From: Ailanthus altissimus
Lineage: Eukaryota > Streptophyta > Magnoliopsida > Sapindales > Simaroubaceae
Direction: 5' to 3'
Length of the DNA stretch: 64,000 bases
Assembly: GCA_946807835.1 (NCBI GenBank)
Contig: OX327683.1
Span: 13,335,001-13,399,000 of the forward strand
The notes beneath the pieces were generated by a model. It saw only the letters and a program-made list of their open reading frames with translations, was not told the origin of the DNA and did not search any database. Shown piece by piece: positions 3,381 to 49,300 of the stretch. Every line of letters begins with the position of its first letter. The first letter of the stretch is position 1. A program made the position numbers and the translations under genes.

Positions 3381-3980
3381 CATATAGGTTCATAAATTTT
3401 GATTTCTCCTAAGCATTAGTTTCTTTATTTGTACAAAATAGATCTTTAACATTCACATATTGATGTTTAAAATTCAATATTATAAAAGTATTGTTTTTGG
3501 GTCATTTCAAATGGGTCATTAGTCAGGGACCTATTTAAAATAAAAGGACAAACTATGCTCTTATTTAATAAAACATAAAACTCAGATCTGAGTGTTATTA
3601 TCCCTTGCAGGTATTTATATTTCAAAAAGTTTATAAACAAATGAAAAGGCTGTTTTTTTCTGCTAAAAGTCTTGTGTAAACTTGTAAACATAAAAAACTG
3701 AAATGATCCTATGAGTATGAGCACGAGCTTTTTGATTGATAACCATTTCTAAAAAATGTGGCTAGGATTCACAAATCAAAATGCCTAGAAAATTGAAATT
3801 TACAGTATCCTTTTTTAAAATTCTAATAAATGATATTATTGTTTATGGTTATTTCTGCCAGAGTTTGAATTTGGACATTCGAGATTGAATGGTCTTTTTA
3901 TAAAAAGGCGGCTTGAGAACCCAAAAATTCCTTTCGAGGGCAAGATTATGCATTAACAATGATTTAAATTTAATGCTTTA
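3381..3980. other. Unassigned AT-rich DNA
   Basis: About 600 bp between the LINE A tail and the tandem repeats. I see no coding similarity, RNA gene or terminal repeats. Short open frames on the minus strand here are low-complexity and match nothing I recognise. Confidence 0.5.
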
Positions 3981-4889
3981 AAATTGTAATAAATTCTTTT
4001 TAAATTGTATATGGCAGAGTTTTCCAACATACGCAGTGTTCTGAATGTGAAGCAACGCAGCCTCATTTTGGGATGCAATCTCAATTCTGCTTTTGGTTGA
4101 CATTATTTTTTTGACCAAATTGGTGAATGGTGATTTCTTTTTTCCTTTTCAATTATTATTATTATTTTAAGAAGAATATAGAAAGCACCTCAATATATTT
4201 ATTTTACTTAAGTTAGGGTTCAAAACGGTTTTTAGGACATTAGCCCATTCCTTAAAAGTGAGAGAAAAGAAGTGGAATAAATTGTAATAAATTATTTTTA
4301 AATTGTATGTGGCAAAGTTTTCCAACACACGTAGTGTTCAGAATGTGAAACAATGCAGCCTCATTTTGGGATCAATCTCAATTTTGCTTTTGGTTGATAT
4401 TATTTTTTTGACCAAATTGGTGAATGGTGAATTCGTTTTTCCTTTTCAATTATTATTATTTTAAGAAGAATATAGAAAGCACCTCAGTTTATTTCTTTTA
4501 CTTAAGTTAGGGTTCAATAAAAATTTTAGTACATTAGCCTATTCCTTAAAAGTGAGAGAAAAAAAAGTGGAATATATTGTAATATATTCTTTGAAAATTG
4601 TAATAAATTCTTTTTAAATTTGTGTGGTAGAGTTTTCCAACACACGTAGTGTTCAGAATGTGAAACAATGCAGCATCATTTTGGGATGCAATCTCAATTC
4701 TGCTTTCAGTCGACATTATTTTTTTGACCAAATTTGTGAATGGTGATTTCTTTTTTTTTTTTAATTATTATTATTATTTTAAGAAGAATATAGAAAGCAC
4801 CTCAGTTTATTTATTTTACTTAAGTTAGGGTTCAAAAAAGTTTTTAGGACATTAGCCTATTTCTTAAAAGTGAGAGAAAAGAAGTGGAA
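3981..4889. repeat. Three tandem copies of a ~298-bp unit
   Basis: Copies run about 3,981-4,278, 4,279-4,594 and 4,595-4,889. Each contains the same ordered landmarks: AAATTGTAATAAATT, TTTTCCAACA, CAGCCTCATTTTGGGAT, TTTTTTTGACCAAAT, an ATT-repeat, AAGAAGAATATAGAAAGCAC and AAAAGTGAGAGAAAA. The period is 298 bp between copies 1 and 2. Copy 2 is longer by an extra AATATATT-type mini-duplication at its end. No coding capacity. It could be a short satellite array or a local triplication. Confidence 0.92.
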
Positions 4890-15706: not shown

Positions 15707-16552
15707 TCAGCTCATTCCCTATCCTAACATTTTGATGAAAAGTGCTCGTTCTTTATATGATGTAGCTTATTGCTGTTACATTCATTTATGCTTTCAATTT
15801 AGATACTGACCGGTGAAGTCAAGTATTCGAGTTATTTTATTATCGTGTTCTGTGTTAGATTATAATATACATAGGATGAGAGTCAATCCTAGATGAATCC
15901 CATCATGTTTCAAAATTGAAAAATAGCCCAAAATCGAGACAAGAGAAAGAGACCATCTCGTTGGTATTACTAATTACTCCCACAAAACCAAGCAAAAGCC
16001 GGACCTTATTATTTTTGTGCACATCAAAATTTTCAGAAATAAACACAAATAAGAACTGAAAGTGAAAACTATACATTATTTTTTCTTTTATCTTTTTTTT
16101 TTTTTTGTCAACGAGAAACCTTGTCCCTCCCATTGAATGATATTGTGAAAGTATTTTAGCCATCTTAGTTTCATGGAACAGGAGGAATTCTGAACGTGTG
16201 CAAGTGCAACTACTCAGAAGATACACATATATTATCTAAATCCAAGTATATATGTTTGCATCCGGATAAATTTGACTTTGCTGGTGCCATTACCATTTAT
16301 TGACCATTTTGAATAACTTTAAAAATGCGTGCCGAGTACGTGGGATGGTGTGTAAATACTCTATTTTCGACTGCTAAAAATATAATTTCACAACTAAAAT
16401 TAAGACCGTTCAATCATTAGTCTTCCTTACTCCTTTAGAAAGAAAAGTAATTTCACAGTCACCGGAGTCTGTATAAGGTTAATTACATTAAAAATAGGCT
16501 GGTCTAGTCTAAGATGCAATAGCAGGTTGTAGGCTTCTCAAATTATATCTTA
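15707..16552. other. Unassigned DNA upstream of the U6atac locus
   Basis: About 850 bp with no recognised transposon domain. A minus-strand open frame at 15,903-16,226 is low-complexity (lysine and phenylalanine runs from poly-A/T) and is not convincing as a gene. With 16,744-16,818 this is the best candidate in the window for low-copy host DNA. Confidence 0.5.
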
Positions 16553-16593
16553 ATCCCACATGGCCAAATTACCAGTTACAAACGGTATATAAG
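16553..16593 (+). promoter_or_regulatory. Plant Pol III snRNA promoter: USE and TATA box
   Basis: ATCCCACATGG at 16,553-16,563 matches the plant upstream sequence element RTCCCACATCG at 10 of 11 positions. TATATAAG follows at 16,586-16,593, leaving 22 bases between them. In plants this close spacing specifies Pol III (U6-type) rather than Pol II snRNA transcription. The TATA box starts 29 bases before the inferred RNA start at 16,615. Confidence 0.85.
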
Positions 16594-16614
16594 AGTTAGT
16601 TGAAGCCACCCACC

Positions 16615-16735
16615 GCGTTCGTAGAATGAAGAGAATGTTGGCATCTCCCCTGACAGACGTAGTAGCAGCCGTCGGGCTTAATTGTAACCTACACAATCTG
16701 TTAAGGCACCCACCTCCTTGGATCTTCTAATCCTT
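16615..16735 (+). ncRNA. U6atac: U6atac snRNA gene copy (minor U12-type spliceosome)
   Basis: U6atac replaces U6 in the spliceosome that removes U12-type introns, pairing with U4atac, U12 and the intron 5' splice site. The locus is about 119 nt plus terminal Us, close to the 125 nt of human U6atac. As I recall the human RNA, collinear matches include AGAGAA, GTT(G/A)GCA then CTCCCCT-GACA (16,631-16,655), CTCGGGC-like GTCGGGC (16,671-16,677) and GTTAAGGCA (16,700-16,708), then CCACCT and ATCT...CTAA near the end. GACG (16,656-16,659) can pair with CGTC (16,670-16,673). The promoter and T-run fit Pol III transcription. The conserved AAGGA that pairs with the 5' splice site is not present; the region reads ATGAAGA. 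It may therefore be a diverged copy or pseudogene. Confidence 0.85.
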
Positions 16736-16743
16736 TTTTTTTT
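16734..16743 (+). terminator. Pol III terminator (T10)
   Basis: A run of ten T residues directly follows CTAATCC at the inferred 3' end of the U6atac RNA. This is a strong Pol III stop. Confidence 0.8.
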
Positions 16744-16818
16744 CTGTTCTCAAATGAAAATTTTCTTTTTGGCTTTGATATTAAACAGCTGCCGTTAACT
16801 CTCCATTTGAGCCTTCAA

Positions 16819-16934
16819 TTTGGGCTTCTTAGAGAACTCTTCATCACAGTGTTCACATTCTAACGTGGCTTACAATTTGATATGGAGTGGCGATATTTCC
16901 ATTTTTTTTTTTGGAACAAAGATACTGATATTAA

Positions 16935-16965
<31 letters not shown>

Positions 16966-17145
16966 CGAGGATGCATATCTTCAACAATAAATTGTTCTTC
17001 GATTTGGGCTTCTTAGAGAACTCTTCATCGGTGTTCATATTCTAACGTGATTTACAATTTGATAAAGAGTGGCGATATTTCTTTTCTTTTATTTTTGATA
17101 AAGATATTGATATTAAAAAAATATAAACTTGAGGATGCATATATC
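16819..17145. repeat. 184-bp direct duplication covering a LINE 3' end
   Basis: TTTGGGCTTCTTAGAGAACT occurs at 16,819 and 17,003, and the following text (TTCTAACGTG, TACAATTTGATA, GAGTGGCGATATTTC, GAGGATGCATAT) repeats in the same order. The first copy contains a TA dinucleotide run (about 16,935-16,962). The duplicated unit includes the terminal part of the minus-strand LINE. Confidence 0.88.
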
Positions 17146-17840
17146 TCTACAAAAAATTATTCAAGTGAGCTTGGAATTGAGTCGATCCAAGTTATATTTG
17201 AGAAAAAAATACATAGCAAGTTTAGCTAATTTACGAGCTACCTTATTCGCAACTGATGGTGTGAAAATAACTTTATGAGTTAGCAAGGTGCCTAAACAAT
17301 TAAGAATATCCTAAATAATAAACCCCAATTTCAGGGAAGAACTTATCTCTGATAGAATATCATTAGCAACTGAAGCCAAATTTGACTCAATCTCGATATT
17401 TGTATAGACCAAAGTCACTCTTACATTAAGCCACTTTGAATTGCTAGTGCCTCCACAAATAGGACAAAGAATAAGTATAGGAGTGTCATGACACTTGGAA
17501 AAATAACTCTACTAGCACTATCTCTACACACAAAGCCAAAGCTAGACTTATTTGCACACTTGTTGAATGCAGCATCTGAATTGAGTTTGAAAGAACCCAC
17601 TATTGGGGGATGCCCGGAAACAGCTGATGCAGAGGAGGGAAGTGATTACAACTATATTTTATGAAGTCGTTGGTTTGTAGAGCATATACGCCAAACCACA
17701 ACCAACAATAGCTCAAAATATGCAATATAAAGCTAAGACATACAAGTAAGGAAACAATCCTGTATCGACATTCTGGGATTGTATGAAATATCCCCAATGA
17801 TTATGTAAATCAAGTTATCAAAACTTCACAAAATTCGTTG
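16902..17840 (-). mobile_element. LINE D, 3' part: RNase H-like domain and 3' end
   Basis: On the minus strand the translation GHPPIVGSFKLNSDAAFNK (about 17,615-17,560), then FGFVCRD, then VEALAIQ, then ANKVARKLAKLA (about 17,255-17,215) is the RNase H-like domain that ends plant L1 ORF2. The preceding stretch resembles the linker after the zinc-finger-like region. The 3' end is marked by a T-run at 16,902-16,912, the complement of the poly(A) tail. Stops and frameshifts are common. It pairs with 24,245-25,080. Confidence 0.8.
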
Positions 17841-17841
17841 A

Positions 17842-18028
17842 GCATCCATAGGAGTCCAATGATAAGAGTAAGAACCAAGAAAATGAAAGAAGCATTAAAT
17901 AGGTTAATTGATCACATTTTAAATTCGTATTTTGTTTAAGACACTAATTTGACCGATTCAGTGTTCAAGATGATCTATACCTTGTCAATGTTATTCAAAT
18001 TTTTTTAAGTGATCTAAAGTAATTTACA
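17842..18028 (+). pseudogene. Integrase C-terminal tail of the gypsy family, upstream of the 5' LTR
   Basis: This stretch is collinear with 23,911-24,098, the end of the gypsy polyprotein (GPITKARIK ... LIEHISN ... LTDSSVQDDLYLVNV there). A coding tail should lie before a 3' LTR, not before a 5' LTR. Its presence points to a tandem arrangement or unequal recombination between copies. It carries stops. Confidence 0.75.
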
Positions 18029-18688
18029 TGAAGAACAAAATAAGACGCATATCAATTTAAGAAGGAAGATTTGGTTGATATCAATTTAGGAAGGAATATC
18101 TAGCATTATTGTTCATGTGTCACTATTCACATAACACTGTTCATAAGTTACTGTTCATGCAATACTGGTCACCGCTTATTAGATCCTTATTTTCTTTATT
18201 TCCTTTTTTTTTTTCATTCTTAGGTTAAATTCTGAAACAAAGATACAAAAATATTTGTTTTCTTAATATGCTTATTATTTATTTCCTATTTTTGTAATCA
18301 ATTCCTACTATGACTCAAGCTATGACTTAGTTTTTCCTTTTACGCTCTTGGTAAAATTGCCTATATAAGGCATTGTAACCTCAATGGGAATTCAGAGTTT
18401 AACATTAATAATAATAGTGAGAGTTTTCTCTTGGTTCTTTAAAAAACTTTTCAGAACTTATCAAGACTTCTTCTTTTGGCGTTCATTATTGACTTATCAC
18501 TCACAATCTTTCTCATCTTTCTTGAATATGGTATCTACCCTAATTTTTTTATACCTTTAGTTCTTATCTTTTTATAGATAATGGGTCAAGGTTCTTTATT
18601 TTGTTTGTTTGGAAATCTGAATTAGAACGATCATTAGCAAAGAAACCTTATTGAGCATCGAGTCTCACTTTTCTTTGTAAGGTTCACA
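18029..18688 (+). repeat. 5' LTR of the gypsy element (~660 bp)
   Basis: Begins TGAAGAACAAAATAAGACGC and ends AAGGTTCACA just before the primer site. The first 145 bp match 24,099-24,243, and the last 300 match the solo LTR at 160-470 in reverse. A TATA-like CCTATATAAGG at about 18,360 is a likely promoter. The left boundary is inferred from the length of the solo copy. Confidence 0.75.
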
Positions 18689-18693
18689 TCAAT

Positions 18694-18705
18694 TGGTATC
18701 ATAGC
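18694..18705 (+). other. Primer-binding site, initiator Met tRNA type
   Basis: TGGTATCATAGC matches the plant consensus TGGTATCAGAGC except one base. It lies five bases after the LTR end. Confidence 0.85.
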
Positions 18706-19380
18706 TTAGGCTCTAAATCAGGTTTAATCTATCCTTTATTTTCATTGTTTGTTCGTCTTTTAAATTTACCATTTGTTCTATTCTCTTGAATCTACAACCT
18801 ATCATCTCTATTTCTTCTTGACCATAACTTTTACCTGTTTTTTCACCCTAATTCATTCAAGTTCTATTGTTTATTATTACATATAAGAAAAAAAAGAAAA
18901 TAGAAAAAAATTCATATTCAATTGATTTTAAGTTTCAATTCTGAATTCTGAATCAAAAAAATAAAAGAGTATATAGAAATCTAAATTAGTTGAATTGTTG
19001 TTAACTATTTAAATTTTGTTTGCGTATAGTGTGCATTCTACCTATTTTGTGCAATTTGGCCTAAAACAAAACCAACAACCCTAAATTTCTTCAAAATCCA
19101 TATTTCGTTTTGTTTTTCTCTTTGCTTCTTAAATTTTGCTTATTCTTTATCTTTTACGTTTAACCCATTCTCATTCTTAGTGATTTAATTTGTTGAGTTT
19201 GGATTGTTACAAAGTAATTTTGATTAAGTCCGTTAAGTTCAATAAAGAACTAAAGAGGAGACTAAAGAGTGGAACAAGGCAAGAGAGTGTGAGCTAATTA
19301 GAGGGTAAAAGCCAAATTTGAGTAAACATGTAAGGGAGTGTTTATGAGGTTTTCTAACTTTTTTTTGCAGGTTATTAAAC
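18706..19380 (+). other. Gypsy leader between primer site and gag
   Basis: About 670 bp of AT-rich untranslated leader. Just before gag it holds TTCTAACTTTTTTTTGCAG, which has the form of a branch point, pyrimidine tract and 3' splice site (AG at 19,369-19,370). Confidence 0.55.
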
Positions 19381-20480
19381 ATGTCTCAAGAAAAAGATAG
19401 TGACTCATCCAATGTTGTTCAGGAAAAGATAGATTTTAAACTTTAATTTAAGTCCTTAGAACAAAAATTTAATCGATTGAAATTGAGGTTTGATAAGGTG
19501 AATGAGAGAATAGATAAAGTTGAATCTAGTTCACAAAGGTGGTAGCCATCTAAAGCTTCTAATGTGCAACAAAGAGATAGAAATACACTTAGGTATGATT
19601 ATGAAGATGACTATAAGGATGGCCTAGATGATGATGATCATTCCTCTAATGTTAATTTAGGCAAATTTAGGCATAGGAATGGAGATAAAAGAGTTAGATA
19701 TAGAGATAAGATTGATAACAACTTAGGAAGCATTAAGATGAAGATTCTATCTTTCCAAGGCAAAAACAATCCTGAAGTATATTTGGAGGTGGAGAAAAAG
19801 ATGAAATTGGAATTTTATTGTCACAACCACTCCCAATTAAAAAAAAAAAAAGGTGGCTGCCATAGAATTTACTGACTATGCCATTGTTTGGTGGAATCAA
19901 CTTGCTTTGAGTAGGAGATGAAATTATAAAAGATTCATTGAAACATCAGAAGAGATGAAGGCTATTATGAGAAGATGATTCATTCTAAATTATTACTATA
20001 GAGACTTATTTCAGACGTTACAAAGCTCAAGGGTCTAAAAGTATAGAAGACTACCACAAAAAGATGAAAATAGCCATGATTCGAGCCAATGTAAAGGAGG
20101 ATCGAGAAGCTATTATGACTAGGTTCCTAGTTAGTTTGAATCGTGATATTGCAAACGTGGTACAGTTACAACATTATGTTGAGTTGAATTGCATGGTGCA
20201 CATGGCCATAAAAGTGAAGCAATAATTGAAGAGGAGGGGTTCCATATGAAATGGGCAGAATTTGGGTTCTTCTTCGACATGGAAACTGAATTAGAGTAAA
20301 AATGATGAAAAGCCTAATTTCAAGCCTAAGGCCAAAACTTCCAAAAATTAAAAAGATAGAGGTGCATCAAACAAAGGTAAATCTGATTCCCAAAATTCTA
20401 TAAATAGAGATATTAAATGCTTTAAGTGTTTGAAAATACGTTATATTGCATCTCAATGCCTAAACAAAAGAGTGATGATA
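19381..20480 (+). pseudogene. Gypsy gag remnant with zinc knuckle
   Basis: ATG 19,381 opens MSQEKDSDSSNVVQEK, followed by a coiled-coil-like stretch and RDKIDNNLGSIKMKILSFQG (about 19,695-19,760), the start of the capsid domain. Later blocks YAIVWWNQL-like, MRR-F and IEDYHKKMKIAMIRANV (about 20,040-20,090) continue it in other frames. The nucleocapsid knuckle at about 20,419-20,460 reads CFKCLKIRYIASQC; the expected histidine is tyrosine. Stops interrupt it from codon 20 on. Gag would package element RNA. Confidence 0.82.
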
Positions 20481-20574
20481 TTAAAATATGACGGTGATAT
20501 TAAGACTGAAGTTGAATTTGATGATGAGCCCATCCTACCATTGGAGGATGCAAGTGATATTGAGTATCAATTTG

Positions 20575-20765
20575 ATGGAGAGCTTTTGGTTGCAAGAAGG
20601 CTCTTAGTGTGTAAATCAAAGAAGATAAGAAGGTACAATGTGATAATTTGTTTTATACTATATGTCAGTTAATGGAGAGCTTTTGGTTACAAGAAGGCTC
20701 TTAGTGTGCAAATCAAAGAAGATGAGAAGGTACAACGTGATAACATTTTTATATACTAGACGCTA
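20575..20765 (+). repeat. 97-bp tandem duplication at the gag-protease junction
   Basis: ATGGAGAGCTTTTGGTT at 20,575 recurs at 20,672, and the following text (AGAAGGCTCTTAGTGTG, AAATCAAAGAAGAT, AGAAGGTACAA) repeats in order. It lies between the zinc knuckle and the protease and disrupts the reading. Confidence 0.9.
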
Positions 20766-20769
20766 GTCA

Positions 20770-21300
20770 ATGATAAGATATGTAGTATGATTATTGATGA
20801 GAGGAAGTTGTAATAATATAGCTAGTACTAGTTTAGTTGAAAAATTGAAATTGACAACTTTAAAACATCCAGGCCATATAAGCTACAAGGGTTAAATGAT
20901 TGTAGAAAATTTAAAGTAAATAAATAAGTGTTGGTTTATTCTCAATTATGAAGTATAAAGATGAGGTTTTGTGTGATGTAGTAGCAATGCATGTGGGGCA
21001 TATTCTTTTGGGGTGACCATGGCAGTATGATAGGCATGTAATTCATGATGGTTACCCCAATAGGTATTCTTTTGCACTTAGTGAAAAATCAATTACTCTT
21101 GTACCTTTAACCCTAAGACAAGGGTATAGAGATCAAGTGAAGTTGAAAAGGAATATAAAAAAAGATAGTGAAAGTTCAAAAGTAAGAGAGGCTTAAACAA
21201 AAAGAAGAGAAAAAAAGAGTGAAACGGAAAATGAAGTTTTAGTTAATGAGAAAAGAAAAGAGAGAAAACAAGTGAATTTTTATACAAGAGAGAGTGAAAT
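20770..21300 (+). pseudogene. Gypsy aspartic protease remnant
   Basis: Frame-shifted translation gives NDKICSMIIDERKL where active relatives read I-D-G-G-S-C, then STSLVEKLKLTTLKHP, then VAMHVGHILLG-like text (about 20,985-21,015) and ITLVPLTLRQGYRDQVK (about 21,090-21,140). This is the retropepsin-like domain that would cut the polyprotein. The active-site D-G-G has become D-E-R, a loss of function. Confidence 0.75.
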
Positions 21301-21369
21301 AAAAAAAATCTTCTTTTGTAAATCAGCCTACGATTGCACTTTTATATAAAGAAGCTTGTTTTAATACTA

Positions 21370-22250
21370 ATGAACTTAACCCTCTGTACCTAGTGCTATT
21401 GTTTCTCTTTTACAGGAATTTGATAATTGCACTAGGCAAGTTAATGAGCTCATGAAGAATGAGTATGTGCGAGATAGCATGAGTACTTGTGTGGTTCCAG
21501 TATTGCTTATGCCTAAGAAGGATGGGTCACGAGGATATGTGTTGCTTGTTGTGCCATCAACAATACCATTATAAAGTATAGACATCCCATTTCTAGATTA
21601 GTTGATATATTTGATGAATTGCATGGTTCTTGTGTTTTTTACCAAAATTGATTTTAAGAGTGGATATCATCAAATTAGGATAAGAGAATGTAATGAATGA
21701 AAAACCGCATATAAAATAAAATATGGTTTATATGAGTGGTTAATAATGCCATTTGGGTTAACTAATGCACCTAGTACTTTCATGAGATTAATAAATCATG
21801 TTTTGCGTGCTTTTATTGGCAAATTTGTAGTTGTATACTTTGATGATATTATGATATATAGCAAAAACTTAGATGAACATATAGAACATTTAAAACTTAT
21901 TTTAATGCTTTAAGAAAAGAAAAGTTGTTTGCTAACCTCAAAAGTGTACCTTTTGCATGGATAAACTTGCATTTTTTGGTTTTGTTGTAAGTGTTAAAGG
22001 AATTAAGGTAGATGAAGAAAAATTTAAGGCAATCCAAAATTAGCCGAAACCTACAAGTGTGGGTCATGTTAGAATTTTTCATGGTTTGGCTAGTTTTTAT
22101 AAAAGATTTATGAAAGATTTTAGTAGCTTAGCCGTACCTTTAACTGAAGTTATGAAGAATGTAGGTTTTAAGTAGGGTGACGAACAAGAAAAGGCATTTA
22201 ATTTATTTAAGAAAAATTAACTATCGCACATTTGCTTGCTTTACCTAACT
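21370..22250 (+). pseudogene. Gypsy reverse transcriptase remnant
   Basis: Blocks in order are STCVVPVLLMPKKDGS (about 21,480-21,530), FTKIDFKSGYHQIRI (about 21,636-21,680), [20 protein letters not shown] (about 21,723-21,782), [18 protein letters not shown] (about 21,826-21,879) and SFHGLASFYKRFM-like text. The catalytic Y-F-D-D is intact, although stops and frameshifts occur before and after it. It would copy element RNA to DNA in the particle. Confidence 0.88.
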
Positions 22251-22600
22251 TCTTTAAAATTTTTGAAATTGAGTATGATGCTTCAGGAATAGATATCAGT
22301 GTTGTACTAATGTAAGAAGGATGTCCAATTGCGTATTTTAATAAAAAGCTAAGTGGAGCAGCCTTAATTTATCCTACATATGATAAAGAGATGTATGCAT
22401 TATTTAGGGCATTGAAAACTTGGCAACATCATTTTTGGAACAGAGTTTATAATTCATACAGATCATGAATCATTGAAGCATTTGAAAGGCCAACACAAGC
22501 TAAACAAGCAGCATGCCAAGTGGATGGAGTTCATTGAAACATTTCTTATGTGATCAAGTACAAGCAAGGTAAGGAAAACATTGTGGTTGATGCAATATCT
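22210..22600 (+). pseudogene. Gypsy RNase H remnant
   Basis: Reads HLLALPNFFKIFEIEYDASG, then [20 protein letters not shown] (about 22,321-22,380), then [17 protein letters not shown] and [19 protein letters not shown] text, ending in [20 protein letters not shown] (about 22,550-22,609). Catalytic positions DAS, E and D are recognisable. It would remove the RNA strand during reverse transcription. Confidence 0.85.
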
Positions 22601-22609
22601 CAAAGGTAC

Positions 22610-24092
22610 GCCTTACTTTCTACCTTATATGTAAAATTATTAGGTTATGAATATATTAAAGACTTGTATGTTAAATATTTTAATTTTGGTAATGTATTCA
22701 ATGCATGTCAAAAGGTGGCATTTGAGAATTTCTTTAGGCATAATGGGCTTTTGTTTAGAGAAAATAAATTATGTGTGCCTAGATGTTCGTTCTGTGAATT
22801 GCTTGTTAGAAAAGTTTTGAGGTGGTTTAATGGGGCAGTTTGGAATATCTAAAACGTTAGATGTTTTGAATGAACACTTTTTTTACCCTTATATGAAACG
22901 TGATATAGAAAAAATTTGTGAGAAGTGTATTACTTGTAGACAAGATAAGTTTAGAGTTAAGCCTTATGGATTGTATACACCTTTGCCTATACCTAGTGAA
23001 CCTTGGATTGACATATCTATAGCTCTTTTGTTAGTTTTACTTAGGTCAAAAAGGAGGTAGAGATTCCATATATATGGTATTTGATAGGTTTTCTAAAATG
23101 GCACATTTTTTTTATGTCATAAAATGATGATGCATCACATATTGCTAACTTATTTTTTAAATAAATTGTACAATTGCATGGCATACCTAAGAATATTGTT
23201 TCAGATAGGAAGAAAAGTTCTTAAGCTATTTTTAGAAGACTTTGTGAGGTAAGTTAGGAATTAAACTTTTAATTTCTACTACTTGTTATCCAAAAATTGA
23301 TGGATAAACCGAAATAGTTAATAGGACTTTTATATACTTTTATTGCGTGTTATAATACAAAAGAACTTAAAAATATGGGAATAGTACTTACCGCATGTAG
23401 AGTTTGCATATAATAAGAGTGTGCATTCAGTAACTAAGTTTTCTCATTTTGAAATTGTGTATAGTTTTAATCCATTAACTCCTTTACCTATGGATGAGTG
23501 TGTTAATTTAGATAGGACGAATAAAGTTGACTTTGTTAGGCACATCCATGAAGAGTTATAATAAAGTATTGAAAGAAGAACTAAATAATATGCCAACCAA
23601 GCTCATAAGGGACGCAAGAAAATTATATTTAAGCCGGATGATTGGATTTGGTTGTATATGTGGAAAGAACGATTTCCCATTCAAAGGCATTCTAAACTAC
23701 TTCTAAAGGGAGATGAACCATTTTAAGTGATTGAAAAGATCAATGATAATGCCTATAAGTTAGACCTTCCAGGTAAGTACAATGTAAGTGTAAGTTTTAA
23801 TGTTGCTGATTTGTCTTCTTTTGATGTAGGTGAAGATTTGAGGATAAATCCTTTTCAAAAGAGGAGAGATGATGCAAATTACATTGTTAAAGCTTCAGAA
23901 GATCCGTTTAGCATCTATAGGGGTCCAATAACAAAGGCAAGAATTAAAATAATGAAGAAAGTATTAACTGGGCTAATTGAGCACATCTCAAATTCATGCT
24001 TTGTTCAAGACACTAATCTAACCGATTCTAGTGTTCAAGATGACCTATACCTTGTCAATGTTATTCAAGTTTCTTTAAGTGATCAAGAGTGA
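22610..24092 (+). pseudogene. Gypsy integrase remnant and C-terminal tail
   Basis: An N-terminal zinc-binding H-H-C-C region (about 22,735-22,945, with CEKCITCRQ) is followed by the DDE core in shifted frames: FDRFSKMAHF and HGIPKNIVSDR-like text. The C-terminal part WKERFPIQRHSKLLLKGDEP (about 23,660-23,720) leads into the open stretch 23,727-24,092, INDNAYKLDLPGKYNVSVSF ... SSFDVGEDLR, with the GPITKARIK tail typical of this plant gypsy group. The last 121 codons are uninterrupted; upstream parts carry stops and frameshifts. Integrase would insert the cDNA. Confidence 0.85.
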
Positions 24093-24098
24093 TTTACA

Positions 24099-24243
24099 TG
24101 AAGAATAAAATAAGATGCATATCAATTTAGAAAGGAAGATTTAGTGAATATCAATTTAGGAATGAAGATCTGGCATTAATGTCCACACGTCACTATTTGT
24201 GTCACAATGTTCACGCGTTATTATTTATAAGACACTATCTATT
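24099..24243 (+). repeat. Truncated 3' LTR of the gypsy element
   Basis: Begins TGAAGAATAAAATAAGATGC and follows the 5' LTR for about 145 bp, then stops abruptly at 24,243, where LINE D sequence begins. The remaining 515 bp or so are missing. Confidence 0.8.
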
Positions 24244-25080: not shown

Positions 25081-25740
25081 TCACCAACTCCCACATTTTT
25101 ATTATACTTTGTTAAAATAATTTATATTATATATATATATATATCTAATTTCATTCCCAATTTATTCTTTTTATCACTTTGAATTTTTTTAATACACATA
25201 TATTACTTAAAAAAATTAAACAAATCAAATTTTTTCATAAATTTTTTATTCCTAAAAATTATTTATTTTACTTTTTAAATAAAAATCTTTAGATGTTACT
25301 ATATTTACAAAATCAGAAATTTAATGTGTATAATAGGTATTAGAGTTTATGATATATTTATAAAAGAAAAAATAAATTATATATGTACATTTAGAATATT
25401 TTTTTGTCTTTTTTGGTAGTTTTAAAAAAAAATTAAAGTTCAAATAAAAATTGTAAGTGGGGATTGATGAAATAAAATTAAGAGTCAAATAGTGCCACTC
25501 TTTCATAAAAAATTGCAATTTGCATTAATTCATTGAATATGATTCAATTTGCCTTTTTTATTTTTGTTCTTTGACGAGTGTTATTGAATACAACTTCCAA
25601 TCTTATTTTAGGCCAACTTAGTAACTCACCTTTTTTGATTTCTCAAAAATTTATTTGAATGATCTGATCTCTCTAAAGACCCCCAATAAATAAATTTTCG
25701 ATAGGCAAAAACTTAGACCTTTTCTATTTGAAAACCTAAA

Positions 25741-44087: not shown

Positions 44088-45478
44088 ACAAAGGTGATGT
44101 CTCTGAACCTCTGGAGAACAATCTAAGAACTTTGAGAAAGTATGCATTACCATATTGGTGGATGGAATCAATTTAAGCGTTCAGAGACCCCCTATCAATA
44201 CAAACAATTTTTTAGATCAAGCCTAGTACAGTTCAAATGCTTAAGGATTCAGTTCAGTTTGTGGGACTCCCAAATGATGATCCTAACAAGCACATCATAA
44301 ACTTCTTGAAAATCTGTGACACCTTTAGATTCAATGTAGTTTCAGACTGTGCCATCAGATTAAGGTTGTTTCCAATTTTTTTAAGGTATAAGGCCAAAAG
44401 ATGGTTAATGCCATTGCCTTTTGGGTCAGTTGTTACTTGCGATGATTTAGCAAGTAAGTACTTAGCCAAATTTTTCCCACCTGTCCAGACTGCTAAGTTT
44501 AAGAATGAAAATACTTTTGTTGAATATGACCAAGAATTATTGAATGAAGCTTACAAGAGGTTTAACAATATGTTGAGGAAGTGTCTACATTATAGAGTTC
44601 ATAAGTGGTTGTTGGTACAAACTTTTCTGTAATGTGCTTACATGTTAGTTAAAGACTATTGTAGATGCAGCAACTAGAGATACTTTTATTAATAATTCTA
44701 CTGGTAAGGGTTATGATTTGTTGGGAGAAATGACAGCTAACAATTATTAGTGGCTAGCTAAAACTGTGAACCGAAGAAAAGTAGTTGGGATACATGAGAT
44801 AAATGCTCTGACATCTTTGACAACTCAGGTAAGCTTTTTTTATCAAGAATGTGAATGCTTTGGAAGTGAATTCAGTAAAAATCTAGCAAGTTATTTATGA
44901 CTTATGTAGGGACAACAATCCTAAAGGTCATTGCATGGAGATAACTTAGTATGTGGGGTTCAATAGAAATTAGAACAACCCCAACTCAAACTACTATAAC
45001 TCAAGATAGAAGAACCACCCAAATTTCTCTTGGAATAATCAAGGCCAACCATCCAGACTAAACTATCCGCTATGATTCCATGCTCCACCAGTGCAATACT
45101 CATAAAAAAATGAACCAAGCGGCCTCTCTCAGAACCTTGGAGAACTATGTGGGACAGTTAGCTTTATCAATCAACAACCATCCATAATGTGCTCTACCAC
45201 ACTGAGGCCAACCCTAGAGATAAAAAGAAGTAATGTAAAATAGTCACCTTGGGAATTGGCAATAAGGTGCAGTCGAGTGTAGTGTAACCTCTAGACAACA
45301 AGCTATACAAGAAGCAAACATGGTTAGATCTAAAGAAGAAAAAGAGGACACTCAACTTCATAAGCAATAGAAAGCAGATAAAGGTAGACTAGTACATTCA
45401 CAGAGGCATATTTATATCCCACCACCCCACAGACTCCAAAAGAAGAAACTAGACAAGCAAATTTCCAATATACCATTT
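44088..45478 (+). pseudogene. Athila-type gag fragment
   Basis: Reads VQFVGLPNDDPNKHIINFLK (44,252-44,311), ICDTFRFNVVSDCAIRLRLF, FGSVVTCDDLASKYLAKFFP and QELLNEAYKRFNNMLRKCLH (44,530-44,589), open over 44,237-44,632. Decayed blocks follow: TIVDAAT, GYDLLGEMTANNY, VVGIHEINAL, then LRTLENYVGQLA (about 45,133-45,168) and the end block PQRLQKKKLDKQ-like text (to about 45,465). This is a different Athila subfamily from that at 8,170. Cut off at about 45,480 by rearranged copia DNA. Protease is not attached. Confidence 0.87.
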
Positions 45479-47724: not shown

Positions 47725-49300
47725 GTCTCATAGATTTGTCCTCAAATCTTCATTTTTATCATCCCCTATATCGAAAAGAGATAAGTTAAAAATATTAAAA
47801 CTTGCACTAACACCATACTCACCAAGTAATTCAAGCATGTAGGCATTGTCATTTAAGTATTCCAATACTTGAAATAGCCCATCACCCTTTGGACAGAGTT
47901 TAGAATGCCTGTGCTCGGGAAAATGATCTTTCCTCATATGCAGCCAAACCCAATCTCCTGGTTTAAAGACAACCTTCTTGTGTCCCTTATTGGCTTGTTT
48001 AACATATTGCTCTATCCACCGTTTTATATTTTGCTTCGCATTTTCATGAATCTATTTAATAAATCAACTTTCTTTTTGCCATTTAAGTTAACACATTCAC
48101 TCAAAGGTAGAGGAGTTAAATCCAAAGGAGTCAATGGATTAAAACCATAAACAATCTCAAATTGTGAAAGCTTAGTTGCAGAATGAACATAATTATTATA
48201 AGCAAATTCAACATGCAACAAATAGTCTTCTTATTTTTTCAAATTTTTTATATGATAGCACACAACAAAGTAAACAAAGTCCTATTTACTATTTCGGTTT
48301 GACCATCAATTTGTGGGTGACATATAGTAGGGAACAATACTTTAGTTCCTAAATGTTTCCACAAAGTCTTCCAAACGTAGCTCAAGAACCGTGCATCTGA
48401 TCAGAAATAATAGTCCTGGGCATGCCACGTAACCTAACTATCTCCTTGAAGAATAAATCGGCTATATGTGATGCATCATCAATTTTATGGCATGCAATAA
48501 AATGTGCCATCTTAAAGAGCCTATCAACAACTACAAAAATTGAGTCCCTCCCTCTCTTAGTCCTAGGTAAGCCCAAAATAAAACCATAGAGACATCGACC
48601 TAATATGCACTAGTAATTGGGAGGGGTGTGTAAAACCCATGTAGTTCATGTGCAGCTAAAACAATGTTCATGCAATACACCTAAAGTCCTTGCTACCCTG
48701 AAATGGCCCATCAAATCACCACTATATACTTCCTGAACTAGTAATTCACGCAAAGATGAATGTGGAACACACAATTTATTTTCTCAAAATAGAAAACCAT
48801 CATGCAAATAGAACTTCCCACTTACCTCTTAGTGAAATTTTTAAACAGTCACTGAAATCAAAATTCGTTGCATATAACTCCTTAATGTACTCAAATCCAA
48901 GCAATTTAGAATTAAGGGTTGAAAGCAAAGTGTACCTGTGTGATAGTGCATCGACAACTACATTCTCCTTATCTTGTTTATATTTGATCACATAGGAAAA
49001 TTTTTCAATGAACTCCACCCATTTGGCATAGCGTTTGCTCAACTTATGCTGCCTTTTTAAATGCTTTAAAGATTCGTGATCTGTATGAATCACAAACTCT
49101 TTTGGCCATAGATAATGTTGCTAAGTCTCTAGAGTTCAAACCAATGCATACAATTTCTCACTAAAGGATGCAACCAATCTTCCCTATTGCATCAACATAC
49201 CTCTAATACCTATACTTGAAGCATCCATTCAATTTTGAACATTTAAGTGAAGTTAGGTACAACAAATAAAATTGCATTATTCAATTTTTCTTTAATGAGT
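47725..49300 (-). pseudogene. Ty3/gypsy fragment: RNase H to integrase C-terminus
   Basis: Minus strand, same family as 18,029-24,243. From 49,300 downwards: LIKEKLNNAILF, then [20 protein letters not shown] (about 49,087-49,028), [20 protein letters not shown] (RNase H end), the zinc-binding region largely lost, [20 protein letters not shown] (48,573-48,514), [10 protein letters not shown] (DDE core), [20 protein letters not shown] (48,212-48,153) and RKDHFPEHRHSKLCPKGDGL then LNDNAYMLELLGEY (to about 47,800). Truncated at both ends with no LTR. Its integrase is somewhat better kept than that of the + copy. Confidence 0.87.

Follow-up and report, generated by a model that had tools for sequence, protein, structure and literature searches.

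A U6atac-derived locus in the genome of Ailanthus altissimus, very probably a non-processed pseudogene with promoter remnants

The U6atac locus and its signals

The window, i.e. the whole stretch of 64,000 nucleotides of A. altissimus DNA analysed here (C1:13335001-13399000), possesses one match to Rfam 15 at gathering cut-offs, U6atac (RF00619). This match extends over positions 16615-16742 of the forward strand and covers the entire model (1-126 of 126) with 49.9 bits (cut-off 33, E 3.8e-9). A permissive Rfam scan of positions 16000-17300 returns besides U6atac only a snoRNA (E 0.41), and no better fit to U6 or another RNA. The family assignment of the initial annotation is therefore borne out, and the window contains a real U6atac-derived locus with the following elements:

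16553-16563, forward strand: USE, ATCCCACATGG, identical to RTCCCACATCG in 10 of 11 positions
16586-16592, forward strand: TATA box TATATAA, separated from the USE by 22 nt and situated 29 nt upstream of the RNA start
16615-16733, forward strand: U6atac RNA body, decayed (RF00619, 49.9 bits, model 1-126)
16734-16743, forward strand: T10 run, a Pol III-type terminator by its sequence

The USE (10/11), the U6atac body of about 119 nt and the T10 run are all present as claimed initially. The TATA box, which had been described as standing at Pol III spacing, is likewise present, and its distance to the USE is closer to the Pol III than to the 32-33 nt type, but with 22 nt it falls 3 nt short of the 25 nt found in the U6atac copies of contigs C12 and C6. 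USE-like sites with at most one mismatch occur four times in the window (0.58 expected; none of 100 shuffles reaches four). The USE at 16553 is the only one of them on either strand that is followed by TATA[AT]A within 20-28 nt.

U6atac copies in the assembly

The genome search comprised 939 Mb in 37 contigs, in which at least six U6atac matches score above the cut-off; the other 8 of the 14 matches listed remain below it (U6atac counts for the genome are lower bounds, with the best candidates scored). The highest score belongs to C12:27862930-27863059 (92.6 bits), a copy adjoined by SufD and PPR genes, followed by copies on C2 (69.8 bits) and C6 (54.0 bits), and the window copy (49.9 bits) ranks fourth among the matches listed. 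The scores of C12, C2 and C6 were reproduced in a repeat scan. The remaining two matches, with 42.8 and 42.3 bits, are on contig C1 near 2.40 and 2.42 Mb. The A+T-rich U6atac-like copies there, L005 (C1:2397827) and L006 (C1:2420267), are found in opposite orientation, 22 kb apart and inside a 2.9-kb duplication of 86% identity, which may be a repeat with a U6atac fragment in it.

None of 14 prokaryote control genomes has a match above the U6atac cut-off, and 11 of the 14 have sub-threshold matches with E up to 10. A 20-base pattern scan of genome contigs for plant U6atac elsewhere gave a single match, in a Bacteroidetes MAG, which is taken as chance; the same pattern scan of viral contigs gave no match.

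Duplicated segment and retrotransposon surroundings

The window copy is embedded in a stretch of host DNA that is shared with contig C2:

15769-16866, forward strand: host stretch with the U6atac copy, common to C2:8848549-8849699 (BLASTN)

Identity amounts to 839 of 1,233 columns (68% with gaps, E 9.4e-122). On the upstream side of the RNA the homology continues for about 0.85 kb, promoter region included, and on the downstream side for about 0.13 kb. Two more C2 anchors keep order and orientation, one upstream (window 3465-4126) and one downstream (25557-25654), both amid many repeat matches. The end of the upstream anchor is repeated twice more in the window (4279-4423 and 4575-4739). A second pair is formed by C12 and C6, which are similar along 10 kb in pieces of 83-91%.

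The initial annotation had placed the locus inside retrotransposon DNA, which is not supported. When 15769-16866 (1,098 bases) is searched against the whole genome at the DNA level, four places are returned: the stretch as such, its C2 counterpart, a nearby repeat of the final 54 bases, and C12, where the RNA body alone matches. As the stretch as such is found only at C1 and C2, its location in a transposon was rejected; the search skips very common words, and its result indicates a low copy number rather than proving it. Retrotransposon remnants are present in the neighbourhood: 4 of 10 frames tested belong to Ty3-type elements, with gag at 44216-44632, RNase H at 48800-49120 and two matches to SH3_Tf2-1, one at 47728-48051 and a sub-threshold one at 23727-24092. 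An LTR pair (17799-18143 and 23868-24213, 81% identical) frames an old element about 1 kb downstream of the U6atac copy. The longest open frame of this element (17799-24213) is 121 aa, and the comparison with C2 gives no match inside it. The U6atac copy thus stands in a host remnant between insertions. Just downstream of it lies a 95-nt direct repeat of 83% identity (16849-16943 and 17031-17125).

Promoters, terminators and partner RNA genes

USE scores are 11/11 in the C2 partner, 10/11 in the window and C6 copies, and 9/11 in C12. The USE-to-TATA gap measures 22 nt in the window and 25 nt in C12 and C6, versus 32-33 nt in the U4atac candidate and the U12 gene. A TATA-like pattern was sought in the promoter of the C2 partner and was not found, and its T run is broken, whereas the window copy has T10. 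The window and C2 copies have lost different signals: C2 lacks the TATA box and an unbroken T run, and the window copy has a USE of 10/11 and a USE-TATA gap of 22 nt. Of the pair, the window copy is the one with better preserved Pol III signals, and Pol III could still transcribe it at a low level.

A single U4atac candidate was found, L014 (C11:27855497-27855646), which with 32.9 bits (E 0.26) does not reach the Rfam cut-off of 53. It is preceded by a perfect USE and, at Pol II spacing, by a TATA-like box, and its stem II matches the C12 U6atac. The U4atac start used in the comparison of promoter gaps was placed by eye and lies 3 nt upstream of the start given by Rfam. Two U12 copies are found at L023 (C2:15913299-15913455, 88.6 bits), the sole U12 above the cut-off of 53, and L024 (C1:17264005-17264155, 34.4 bits). 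Their upstream flanks are 80-83% alike and both possess a perfect USE. U12 follows a pattern like that of U6atac on the same pair of contigs, C2 and C1, with one well-preserved and one decayed copy.

Predicted pairings

The functional regions of the window copy are differently preserved:

16624-16634, forward strand: region of pairing with the 5' splice site, altered at positions 13 and 15 of the human numbering (T at 16627, A at 16629)
16634-16643, forward strand: region of helix I with U12; half of the predicted helix Ia is lost, GGCA remains
16645-16655, forward strand: proximal half of U4atac stem II, CTCCCCTGACA, intact, in predicted duplex with the U4atac candidate L014
16656-16666, forward strand: distal stem II half together with the 3' strand of the internal stem-loop; both are destroyed (GACGTAGTAGC, versus GGACGGGA in C12 and C2)
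16667-16678, forward strand: central stem-loop AGCC-GUCG-GGCU, kept in the predicted fold
16709-16724, forward strand: 3' apical stem-loop region, not formed (CCCACCTCCTTGGAT versus CCCATCTTTCAGATGGAT in C12)

Energies were predicted for fixed slices of each RNA body: the U4atac duplex was computed from residues 21-60, the duplex with the 5' splice site from 1-24, and the internal stem-loop from 29-52. In human U6atac, GG14/15 is described to pair with CC5/6 of the 5' splice site (PMC4980772). This element is absent from the window copy, in which position 15 is A and position 13 is T, and both T16627 and A16629 are private to the window in comparison with C12, C2 and C6. The predicted duplex with the 5' splice site AUAUCCUUU has -5.6 kcal/mol in C12, -3.8 in C2, -4.9 in C6 and -2.1 in the window copy.

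The first 13 nucleotides of U12 are reported to form helix I with U6atac (PMC4980772). Four U12 pairs (GGCA:UGCC) are predicted for the window copy versus nine for C12, i.e. five of nine are gone, but the energies of helix I differ little (C12 -7.8, C2 -6.5, C6 -7.8, window -6.2 kcal/mol). The motif GGCA is found in all four long U6atac copies (L001, L002, L003 and window 16640-16643) where the Rfam consensus has AGCA, and the U12 5' end (UUGCC) is able to pair fully with it.

With the U4atac candidate L014 the predicted duplex has -39.1 kcal/mol in C12, -34.2 in C2, -28.3 in C6 and -30.6 in the window copy, which keeps the proximal half of stem II and loses the distal half. The internal stem-loop is predicted with -4.0 kcal/mol in C12, -6.5 in C2 and -5.8 in C6 (there with shifted pairing), and does not fold in the window copy (0.0 kcal/mol). 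Compensating changes were sought in the partner RNAs, but for neither U4atac L014 nor U12 L023 does the predicted pairing favour the window copy over C12. Human disease variants are described from stem I, stem II, their boundary and the central stem-loop (PMC13049632). The 3' stem-loop is reported to be deletable from human U6atac without loss of splicing (PMC4980772), and its loss in the window copy proves little because it is dispensable in this human assay.

Rates of sequence change

Window and C2 copies are identical in 87 of 117 positions of the body and 662 of 845 of the pooled flanks, without a detectable difference (Fisher p 0.34). As the body is no better kept than its flanks, no extra constraint is seen. 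C12 and C6 share 100 of 124 body positions versus 127 of 217 in the near flanks (p 2.7e-5); their farther flanks, where protein genes lie, show a higher conservation (1549/1767 and 1597/1721). Both flank pools exclude the interval from USE to RNA start (window/C2 34/62, C12/C6 41/68). Identity counts vary with the alignment (window/C2 84/117 in the four-way alignment), and adjacent changes may be single events.

The four-copy alignment has 126 columns, 116 of them ungapped, in which private substitutions number 1 in C12, 6 in C2, 13 in C6 and 17 in the window copy (17:1 for window versus C12, p 1.4e-4). Private gap columns number 1, 4, 0 and 3, respectively. Relative rates of window versus C2 are 22:6 with C12 as outgroup (p 0.004) and 18:8 with C6 as outgroup (p 0.076), and C6 versus C12 gives 18:2 (p 0.0004, outgroup C2). 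A count of 32:3 for window versus C12 with C6 as outgroup was set aside, as C6 is paired with C12 and the comparison would not be fair. According to the body/flank contrast, the private changes and the rate counts, C12 is the copy that looks constrained.

Origin and status of the window copy

The window locus is very probably a non-processed U6atac pseudogene with promoter remnants, which arose by duplication of a DNA segment and is no longer under selection. Flanks and promoter region in common with C2 argue for a duplicate at the DNA level and against a retro-copy. A second U6atac gene of this plant would have given rise to the two copies on C1 and C2 by the duplication of a chromosome segment as DNA, most likely in the course of a whole-genome duplication. 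Together with the pair C12/C6, the simplest account has two older U6atac genes, each of which would have been doubled by a later chromosome duplication. The parent is expected to have been a Pol III gene, in which USE and TATA box directed a transcript of about 119 nt that ended in a T run. Pol III may still yield some RNA from the window copy. This RNA would most likely be unable to act as U6atac, because the 5'-splice-site base at position 15 is changed and, according to the predictions, helix Ia with U12 is largely broken, as are the distal stem II for U4atac and the internal stem-loop.

Several observations run counter to a pseudogene. USE, TATA box and T10 persist together, and the window USE (10/11) is nearer to the consensus than that of C12 (9/11). 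Proximal stem II and central stem-loop are intact, and the U4atac duplex of C6 (-28.3 kcal/mol) is weaker than that of the window copy (-30.6 kcal/mol). Finally, the rate difference from C2 is weaker with C6 as outgroup, and the loss of U12 energy is small.

These promoter elements and the full-length match above the Rfam cut-off speak for a second U6atac gene that still works, one that Pol III transcribes and that serves minor splicing in spite of the changes it carries. Arabidopsis offers a precedent, as its second gene atU6atac-2 is reported to have a USE, a TATA box and a 10-nt deletion (PMC545797). We regard such a gene as very unlikely in the window, because the pairings are altered, the body displays no sign of constraint over its flanks and it changes faster than C2; furthermore, the U4atac pairing region of atU6atac-2 is reportedly 100% conserved (PMC545797), whereas the distal half is destroyed here. 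The window copy is also unlikely to be the working U6atac gene of the genome, the role suggested for it at first, given 49.9 bits versus the 92.6 bits of C12, the most private changes among the four copies and the loss of functional pairings. Most likely the cell is supplied by the C12 gene.

A transcribed U6atac-like RNA with a changed role, either a decoy that holds U4atac and thereby lowers or tunes minor splicing, or a reader of a different 5' splice site, is highly improbable. Promoter, terminator and CTCCCCTGACA are kept and the U4atac duplex is still predicted at -30.6 kcal/mol, but the body is without sign of selection, and C6, more broken in its U4atac element, still reaches -28.3 kcal/mol, so that the energy says little. 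A processed, i.e. reverse-transcribed, U6atac pseudogene inserted in retrotransposon DNA would be in keeping with the gag, RNase H and SH3_Tf2-1 remnants of Ty3 type in the neighbourhood. It is hardly credible, since the homology with C2 passes the RNA ends on both sides and continues through promoter region and flanks; the RNA ends are therefore not the ends of the copy, and an origin as retro-copy was rejected. A chance match or another RNA has a negligible probability, as neither the Rfam scan of the window nor the permissive scan of 16000-17300 nor DNA homology gave support for it, the whole model is matched with E 3.8e-9 in 64 kb, no other family falls below E 0.4 in 16000-17300, and the body is directly homologous at the DNA level to the 92.6-bit C12 copy (E 1e-12).

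Comparison with known U6atac genes and pseudogenes

Arabidopsis is described with the U6atac genes atU6atac (At5g40395) and atU6atac-2 (At1g21395), the 10-nt deletion of the latter being central (PMC545797). With a plant U6atac gene (atU6atac, or C12 in the present genome) the window copy shares USE, TATA box, a spacing near that of Pol III, RNA length, order of blocks and the terminal T run. It differs in the altered 5'-splice-site element, U12 helix Ia, distal stem II, internal and 3' stem-loops, and in a USE-TATA gap 3 nt shorter than that of C12. The window copy resembles atU6atac-2, as reported, in being a second copy with a kept promoter and an altered body, but atU6atac-2 is reported to keep the whole U4atac pairing region (PMC545797), of which the window copy has lost a part. 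In Arabidopsis, snRNA models that carry the mark 'p' are given as putative snRNA pseudogenes (PMC545797). Degraded body, low similarity and poor fold are common to the window copy and non-processed snRNA pseudogenes; in contrast to these, its transcription signals are still recognisable and its duplicated flanks demonstrable.

A spare U6atac copy in a plant is not new, since atU6atac-2 is on record for Arabidopsis, and a decayed non-processed duplicate is an ordinary kind of finding. Among the literature matches listed, no title or abstract opening deals with this locus or with the decay of duplicated plant U6atac genes; genome papers on yerba mate and coffee mention U6atac in passing.

The Rfam cut-off alone would label at least six places of this genome as U6atac genes. 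When the four long copies are compared by flanks, rates and pairings, C12 emerges as the only well-preserved one. The pattern of U12 and U6atac suggests that, after duplication, this plant loses surplus copies of its minor-spliceosome RNA genes.
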